This document shows positions 13,644 through 15,178 of a stretch of DNA of 64,000 nucleotides, one piece after another. The DNA comes from Candidatus Rokuibacteriota bacterium (GTDB lineage Bacteria > Methylomirabilota > Methylomirabilia > Rokubacteriales > CSP1-6): positions 1 through 64,000 of the forward strand of contig QHSL01000078.1 of assembly GCA_003220435.1 (NCBI GenBank). The letters are read 5' to 3'. Both the position numbers and the translations under genes were made by a program. Position 1 is the stretch's first letter, and the number at the start of each line of letters is the position of its first letter. The notes beneath the pieces were generated by a model. That model was given only the letters and a program-made list of their open reading frames with translations. It was not told the DNA's origin and searched no databases.

Positions 13644-14096
13644 ATGAAAGTCCTCGTCCTGCACGGCCCCAACCTGAATCTGCTCGGGACCCGGGAGCCC
13701 GGCGTCTACGGTCGCGTCACGCTCGCCGAGGTCGACCGGATGCTCCGCGAACACGCGCGCCGCCGGGGCGACTCGGTCGAGTGTCGCCAATCCAACCACG
13801 AGGGACAGCTGATCGACTGGCTCCAGGGCGCGGAGCGCGCGCGGTTCACCGGAGTGGTCATGAACCCCGGAGCGTTCACCCACTACTCGATCGCCCTCCG
13901 CGACGCAGTCGCCGCGATCAAGCTGCCGGTTGTGGAGGTCCACCTCTCCAACGTGCACTCACGAGAGGAGTTCCGGCGACACTCGGTTATCGCCGGCGTC
14001 GCGCGCGGGCAGATCTCGGGATTCGGCCCGCAGAGCTATCTGCTCGGCTTCGACGCGCTCACGTCGCTCTCGCGCCGACCGGCCTCACGACGATGA
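13644..14096 (+). CDS. aroQ: 3-dehydroquinate dehydratase, type II
   Basis: 150 residues. It dehydrates 3-dehydroquinate to 3-dehydroshikimate in the shikimate pathway. The type II signature is complete: [19 protein letters not shown] with the catalytic Tyr, the NHEG loop, [15 protein letters not shown], and [14 protein letters not shown] with the catalytic His. Length is normal for the dodecameric enzyme. It stands alone among unrelated genes. Confidence 0.96.
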
Positions 14097-14158
14097 ATCA
14101 CCGCCGCTTCCTCGACGTCTAACCGGCGGCGGGGAGGGGGGCGAGCGGGTGAATCCAG

Positions 14159-15178
14159 GTGGACAGCAACGATGCGGCCCTGATCGAGCGGTGCCGCGCC
14201 GGCGACCTGACGGCCTTCGAGCCGCTGGTGGAGAAGTACCGCCAACGGGTGTACCGGCTCGCCTACAACGTCCTGCGCGACGCCGACGAGGCGCGGGACG
14301 TCTCTCAGGACGCCTTCATCCGGGCCTTCCAGGCGCTCCCCTCGTTCCGGGGCGACTCCGCGTTCTACACGTGGCTCTTCCGCATCGTGATGAATGTCGC
14401 CCGGGATCGCGTGCGGCAGCACGCGGCGCGAGGTCGCGCCTTCGGAACCGAGCGCGTCGACGAGAAAGACTGGGACCGGACGCTCGTCGATCCGGGGACC
14501 GCGCCCGACGCGAGCGCGGCGCAGATCGAGGAGCGCGAGCGCATCATGCGGGCTCTAGCAACTTTGTCGGAGCAGCATCGCACGATTATCATGTTGAGTG
14601 ATCTCGAGGGGCTCTCGTATCGCGAGATCGCCGAGGTGCTGAGCATCCCGATGGGAACCGTGATGTCGCGGCTGCACAACGCGCGCAAACGACTGCGTGA
14701 CAGTCTCGGACCTCTCCTCGTCGTCCTGCTGGTGCTGCTGCTGGCGCTCGTCGCGGCCCACGCCGAGGCTCAGCAGGTCGTCCGCTTCGGCACCCGGATC
14801 GTCCTCGCCAGCGACACGCCGCCGCAGACCGCTCCGAGCCGCGCGCCGGAGCCGCCCGACGAGCGGCTCGAAGCGTTTCTGCCGAAGCTCCGCCAGCTCT
14901 TCCGCTACAACCACTACACGTCGCTGGAGCGCTATCGCGGCGAGGTGAAGGTGGGCGCGACCCAGCGCTGGCCGGTCCCAGGCGACCGGCAGCTCGAGGT
15001 CACGCCCCAGAGCGTGCGCAAGGACACGGTGACGTTTAACGTCCGCCTCATCCGCGGCAGCGTCGCCGAGGTCGCCACGAGCATCCAGGCGCAGTCGGGC
15101 AATCCCGCGGTGATCGGCGGCCCGCGCCACGGCGCCGGAACGCTCATCATCATCCTGTGGACCAACCCCACCCCATGA
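14159..15178 (+). CDS. ECF sigma factor fused to a membrane helix and exported domain
   Basis: 339 residues from a GTG. Residues 1-182 are a complete RpoE-type ECF sigma factor: region 2 (about 20-88, with DEARDVSQDAFIRAFQ) and region 4 (about 127-182, LSYREIAEVLSIPMGTVMSR). With no stop, the frame continues into a hydrophobic stretch LLVVLLVLLLALVAA (186-200), an AHAEA cleavage-like site and a ~135-residue domain that elsewhere would be a separate exported protein (FRYNHYTSLERYRGE, later VIGGPRHGAGTLIIIL). No anti-sigma factor is adjacent. The fusion may tether the sigma factor to the inner membrane with a periplasmic sensor. A lost stop codon or assembly error between two genes is the alternative. 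Confidence 0.8.
   Translation: MDSNDAALIERCRAGDLTAFEPLVEKYRQRVYRLAYNVLRDADEARDVSQDAFIRAFQALPSFRGDSAFYTWLFRIVMNVARDRVRQHAARGRAFGTERVDEKDWDRTLVDPGTAPDASAAQIEERERIMRALATLSEQHRTIIMLSDLEGLSYREIAEVLSIPMGTVMSRLHNARKRLRDSLGPLLVVLLVLLLALVAAHAEAQQVVRFGTRIVLASDTPPQTAPSRAPEPPDERLEAFLPKLRQLFRYNHYTSLERYRGEVKVGATQRWPVPGDRQLEVTPQSVRKDTVTFNVRLIRGSVAEVATSIQAQSGNPAVIGGPRHGAGTLIIILWTNPTP

Follow-up and report, generated by a model that had tools for sequence, protein, structure and literature searches.

ECF sigma factors fused to membrane segments are already known, and the described ones carry an anti-sigma factor within the fusion. The ECF48, ECF52 (SCO4117) and ECF53 sigma factors are proteins of the Actinobacteria (PMC8999054, PMC5826349), and for the membrane-fused sigma factor IutY (ECF243) of Pseudomonas putida, release by Prc and RseP has been demonstrated (PMC8999054, PMC5411451). 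Among anti-sigma factors, the AXA motif of Bacillus subtilis RsiV is cut by signal peptidase only on signal (PMC4183432), and for RsiV and the RsiP protein of B. thuringiensis it is signal peptidase that serves as the site-1 protease, with the site-2 protease acting next (PMC4183432, PMC8844934). The Rokubacteria gene described here departs from these arrangements. Its sigma factor is fused to what appears to be the exported third component of an operon, and the homologue of that operon's anti-sigma factor is encoded by a distant gene with the same promoter. No literature on such a protein in Rokubacteria was found, in a search that did not extend to the large ECF re-classification.

The gene lies in a window of 64,000 nucleotides, by which we mean the whole stretch of DNA that was analysed, taken from a 5.4-Mb draft genome in 147 contigs. 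Its features are collected in Table 1. The reading-frame translation gives 339 aa with no internal stops, and the N-terminal part has the composition of an ECF sigma factor of the sigma70 family, with regions 2 and 4 separated by a short linker. The fused protein scores 115.8 bits with NCBIfam TIGR02937, for which the cut-off is 42.9, and the PDB relatives of the sigma part include RpoE (1or7). The hydrophobic core that follows has a mean Kyte-Doolittle value of 2.8, the highest of any 19-residue stretch in the protein. Residues 185-339 have no Pfam or NCBIfam matches and Pfam finds no zf-HC2 in the fused protein; with no family match, an anti-sigma domain concealed in the C-terminal part was rejected. 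The sequence-only reading had described a single open frame in which a full sigma factor is followed by a hydrophobic helix and about 135 residues that look exported, which the ORF, Pfam and hydropathy analyses confirm, and it was also correct that no anti-sigma gene is adjacent, the neighbours being aroQ upstream and a carboxyltransferase gene downstream.

Table 1. Coordinates of the fused gene, its parts, its promoter and the orphan anti-sigma gene (window positions unless another contig is named).
Feature	Position	Strand	Basis or remark
Complete fused gene	14159..15178	+	339 codons + stop, GTG start
Sigma-70 region 2, residues 23-89	14225..14425	+	Pfam PF04542 (Sigma70_r2), 2.9e-18
Sigma-70 region 4, residues 126-179	14534..14695	+	Pfam PF08281 (Sigma70_r4_2), 9.5e-18
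Hydrophobic core of signal-peptide-like membrane segment, residues 182-200	14702..14758	+	Kyte-Doolittle maximum of protein
Predicted signal peptidase I motif A202-E-A204|Q205	14762..14773	+	Conservation in 48 homologues
Exported all-beta domain, residues 205-339 (135 aa)	14771..15175	+	Alignment, AlphaFold2, standalone homologues
-35 element TGAATC of ECF-type promoter	14094..14099	+	Overlaps aroQ stop codon (14094-14096)
-10 element CGTCTAA of ECF-type promoter	14116..14122	+	17 bases after GAAT, 16 after TGAATC
Orphan zinc-finger anti-sigma gene, outside window	G000:C106:18255-18746 (= L154:4756-5247)	-	Operon anti-sigma profile

The fusion is a property of a whole bacterial order and not of one assembly. 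Full-length relatives are encoded by 37 of 59 related genomes, in all sampled genera of the family and in two further families of the order (families f1-f4, to which we assign the label Rokubacteriales in this analysis). The junction between the sigma and exported parts is without a stop codon in all 48 aligned intact homologues, which come from many separate assemblies and are mostly 50-94% identical to the window protein, and at most loci examined the gene sits between aroQ and the carboxyltransferase subunit gene. Within the genus, dN/dS is 0.06 for sigma region 2, 0.12 for region 4, 0.31 for the linker, 0.41 for the hydrophobic segment and 0.19 for the exported domain, values that indicate purifying selection throughout the fused frame. 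In a draft of 147 contigs an artefact near position 14700 was conceivable, either a stop codon that had been missed or an error of sequencing or assembly; because the relatives are open at the junction in every case, that explanation is refuted and retains next to no probability. It is not credible that about 50 genomes, each assembled separately, share one lost base, and the finding that would have spoken against the fusion, relatives with a stop between the sigma part and the helix, does not occur within the order. A single fused gene, in G005 (L144, G005:C120, near 1818), has a frameshift inside the exported domain, giving a frame of 313 aa with the remainder in another frame, either through assembly error or as a decaying gene. 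The exported domain is strongly diverged in one sub-clade (L145, L147, L109, L046), with 28-34% identity to the window protein.

In its make-up the hydrophobic segment resembles a signal peptide. The last residues of sigma region 4 (ARKRLR) supply a basic n-region, a core with many Leu, Val and Ala residues follows, and the segment closes with A-x-A|Q, so that an AXA motif resembling that of RsiV directly follows the membrane segment. Alanine occupies the -1 position in 46 of the 48 homologues and glutamine the +1 position in 41, and the -3 residue is small or aliphatic in all of them (Ala, Val, Thr, Leu, Gly, Ser or Ile). The AlphaFold2 model of the full-length protein, whose overall arrangement is of low confidence (pTM 0.39), has the last sigma helix continuous with the membrane helix over residues 165-204. 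The natural topology of such a protein would be membrane-inserted, with the sigma factor inside and the domain outside. Site-2 protease and signal peptidase are both encoded in the genome; release of the sigma factor by intramembrane proteolysis is plausible, and the conserved motif suggests that signal peptidase would be the first to cut.

By alignment, the exported domain is a homologue of the third gene in operons of outgroup families. Its AlphaFold2 model is all-beta (pLDDT 89.5) and has no PDB match at E<=0.001. A secretin identity was not accepted, the Foldseek match having an E value of 3.1e-3 with a TM score of 0.32 and the Pfam Secretin matches, in 10 of 54 members of the domain, being weak (best E 0.014), and a sequence match to sorting nexin 27 (E 0.0011) was judged to be due to chance. 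No copy of the domain was detected in nine genomes from other phyla, nor in 199 from the phylum to which L119 (an Acidobacteria record) belongs, these searches having no positive control in the phyla concerned.

The outgroup operons suggest where the fusion came from. Two families of the same class, f8 and f9, have a sigma gene that ends with its own stop codon, then a zinc-finger (zf-HC2) anti-sigma gene with one membrane segment, and downstream a gene that encodes the C-terminal domain as a separate protein. This protein is about 150 aa long, brings its own signal peptide and shares the Ala|Gln boundary of the fusion. The sequence-only reading had supposed that the exported part is usually encoded by its own gene, and these standalone proteins of the sister families support it. 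An unfused three-gene operon is also present as a paralogue in two genomes of f1 (G021 and G090). In the sigma tree the fused proteins form one clade (support 100/100) whose nearest relatives are the operon sigma factors (89/82), a grouping with only moderate support. The aroQ neighbour of the fused gene was not found at the outgroup operons, and orthology is therefore argued from the sequence tree, the exported domain and the promoter and not from position. The three-gene operon is likely to be the ancestor of the fusion.

The anti-sigma gene of that ancestor appears to have persisted at another locus. A search of the window's own genome with the operon anti-sigma profile returned a full-length homologue on another contig (C106:18270-18761, E 3e-21); the remaining matches were far weaker and mostly confined to the zinc-finger part. 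This orphan gene has no sigma neighbour. The tol-pal genes (Pal, YbgF) lie on one side and an alpha/beta hydrolase gene and a DUF502 gene on the other, an arrangement conserved across the order, and a search with the orphan's own profile finds the gene in about 53 of 60 genomes of the order. Two of the genomes without a match (G082 and G085) are 82% and 77% complete, and in two others (G001 and G077) the DUF502 neighbour is near a contig end, beyond which, to judge from the coordinates, the anti-sigma gene would fall. In a further three genomes that have the fusion, G022, G027 and G028, both the orphan gene and its DUF502 neighbour are apparently absent by profile search; these belong to one sub-clade, that of the diverged exported domain. 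All 21 orphan members contain zf-HC2, with the HxxxCxxC motif and single membrane segment of a ZAS protein, and His30, Cys34 and Cys37 are invariant. Aligned to each other, the operon and orphan profiles match along almost the entire length (99.9% probability), including an exported tail ending VMVY...TVVWVF. The anti-sigma tree is unresolved at its base and does not settle strict orthology of the two forms. Several other ECF sigma factors in the genome are also without an adjacent anti-sigma gene, so that pairing by elimination is impossible; homology and the common promoter make the orphan the probable partner of the fused sigma factor. The position of the orphan gene beside tol-pal, with the promoter of the fused sigma gene, may link the regulon to outer-membrane or Tol-Pal upkeep.

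That promoter, TGAATC-N-CGTCTAAC ahead of the fused gene, is rare. The pattern GAAT-N14-20-CGTCYR is found upstream of 41 of 48 fused genes and 18 of 21 orphan anti-sigma genes, and in 0.36% of first-order Markov-shuffled upstream sequences. With the strict form GAAT-N16-18-CGTCYAA, the 5.4-Mb genome yields five sites, of which one precedes the fused gene and one the orphan anti-sigma gene, and both genes are among the 4-6 strict matches in each of the five genomes searched. Since the reversed control pattern gave 0 to 5 matches per genome, the other strict matches look like background, and a larger regulon drawn from strict sites was not accepted, the other three in the window's own genome failing to recur in all five. 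Both strands of 217 kb of loci from the outgroups and the in-group together contain nine strict sites, every one of them ahead of a sigma gene of this family; they include sites at unfused f9 operons (L129, L132) and at an f7 sigma gene (L164), and the f8 operons have a weaker variant. Because strict sites stand ahead of unfused sigma genes, it is likely that the promoter predates the fusion and was kept by both parts. The fused sigma factor would itself recognise GAAT-N17-CGTCTAA upstream of its own gene. One of those other three sites falls within the end of clpP, immediately ahead of clpX, a place where three of the five genomes have a strict match (L238, L225 and L221, at 1501-1528); it may merely reflect conserved coding sequence.

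We present a model, to which we give a probability of about 0.6, in which the fusion product is an autoregulated, membrane-inserted sigma factor held by a trans-encoded, co-regulated anti-sigma factor and freed by signal peptidase and site-2 protease. An ancestral autoregulated operon encoding a sigma factor, a zinc-finger anti-sigma factor and an exported protein would have undergone a single rearrangement, in the common ancestor of the Rokubacteriales. The signal peptide of the exported protein would have been joined in frame to the sigma factor, and the anti-sigma gene would have been relocated beside tol-pal, retaining the sigma factor's own promoter. The product would be inserted in the membrane with the sigma factor inside and the domain outside, and the tethered form would probably be poor at engaging RNA polymerase and promoter DNA because region 4 abuts the membrane helix. 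In the resting state, the co-regulated anti-sigma factor would hold the cytoplasmic sigma part and possibly contact the exported domain outside; the place of this domain in the ancestral operon prompts our guess that it may modulate the anti-sigma factor from there. An envelope signal would lead signal peptidase I to cut at Ala-x-Ala|Gln, as is known for the anti-sigma factor RsiV, and site-2 protease would then cut the remaining helix. The free sigma factor would use GAAT-N16-18-CGTCYAA promoters to transcribe both its own gene and that of the anti-sigma factor, a circuit of positive autoregulation with a co-induced brake. The sub-clade with the fusion and apparently no orphan anti-sigma gene counts against this model. 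A further proposal, that the C terminus of the sigma factor itself serves as the n-region of the signal peptide and that export and signal-peptidase cutting of the partner domain are thereby coupled to release of the sigma factor, is rather doubtful. If true, it would provide a transcription factor that directly reports protein export or the state of the envelope, with a co-regulated anti-sigma factor in trans.

Cutting by signal peptidase may instead be constitutive, in which case the gene would encode a polyprotein, one frame yielding two proteins that the ancestral operon made from separate genes. The exported domain would then be free in the periplasm, the sigma factor with its signal-peptide tail would be freed or cleared by site-2 protease, and regulation would pass through the trans anti-sigma factor and not through the tether. 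The cleavage motif has been kept as in an ordinary signal peptide despite a relaxed hydrophobic core, the Ala|Gln boundary recurs in the standalone homologues, and removal of signal peptides is a known activity of E. coli RseP (PMC8144685). However, the fusion is permanent throughout the order, which suggests that being physically linked is important, and RsiV shows that such motifs can be cut on signal only (PMC4183432); we consider the polyprotein a serious but minority explanation. The sequence-only reading took a different course and implied a tethered sigma factor that senses the periplasm through its exported domain alone, is released by proteolysis and has no separate anti-sigma factor. 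In that case the orphan would serve a different sigma factor. This would fit the lack of an adjacent anti-sigma gene and the three genomes of one sub-clade with the fusion and no recognisable orphan; yet the orphan is homologous to the ancestral partner and has the same rare promoter in five of five genomes, so that the implication is not supported and autonomous sensing is unlikely.

More improbable still is a second translation start at Met169 in region 4 (window position 14663), which would yield, alongside the fusion, an exported protein that is free and carries an ordinary signal peptide (MSRLHNARKRLRDSL...). The ATG is present in 48 of 48 homologues and the codon for Gly166 just ahead of it is GGA or GGG in 37 of the 48, whereas most other conserved glycine columns prefer GGC. 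Met169 nevertheless belongs to a GTVMSR motif that is also present in the unfused operon sigma factors, and the Shine-Dalgarno energy at this position ranks 54th of 319, equal to unfused controls, and so gives an internal start no support. The Gly166 codon lies six bases before the invariant ATG169 (14653-14665, residues 166-169). The preferred reading remains the membrane-inserted sigma factor with its anti-sigma factor in trans. Retention of the three-gene ancestor by the outgroups makes the rewiring of a signalling operon traceable, and the sigma factor, anti-sigma factor, promoter and cleavage site are a ready set for asking whether signal peptidase acts directly on a sigma factor. A more general lesson is that the lack of an adjacent anti-sigma gene is not the lack of an anti-sigma factor.

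The layout of the fusion is that of ToxR/CadC-type proteins, which have an N-terminal cytoplasmic transcription domain, one membrane segment and an exported sensor-like domain; this is a works-like comparison only, and those proteins have a winged-helix DNA-binding domain where the Rokubacteria protein has a sigma factor. The nearest relatives by homology are the unfused operons of f8 and f9 and the paralogue in two f1 genomes, with homologous sigma factor, anti-sigma factor and exported protein and with the same promoter in f9 and ahead of the f7 sigma gene, but their three genes are separate and adjacent instead of being a fusion and a distant anti-sigma gene. ECF48, ECF52 and ECF53 likewise place an ECF sigma factor and one or more membrane segments on one chain, with an exported domain in ECF52 and with proteolytic release proposed (PMC8999054, PMC5826349). 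However, they have a zinc-finger (ZAS) anti-sigma domain inside the fusion, and the Rokubacteria fusion has none, its anti-sigma homologue being encoded in trans. IutY is also a sigma factor fused to a membrane-crossing C-terminal part, but its partner is a FecR-like anti-sigma domain, which is absent from the Rokubacteria protein, where the sigma factor is joined instead to the exported protein encoded third in the ancestral operon. RsiV and RsiP (PMC8844934) have the same conserved AXA motif after a membrane segment; they are anti-sigma factors, in contrast to the Rokubacteria protein, in which the motif is in the sigma protein itself.
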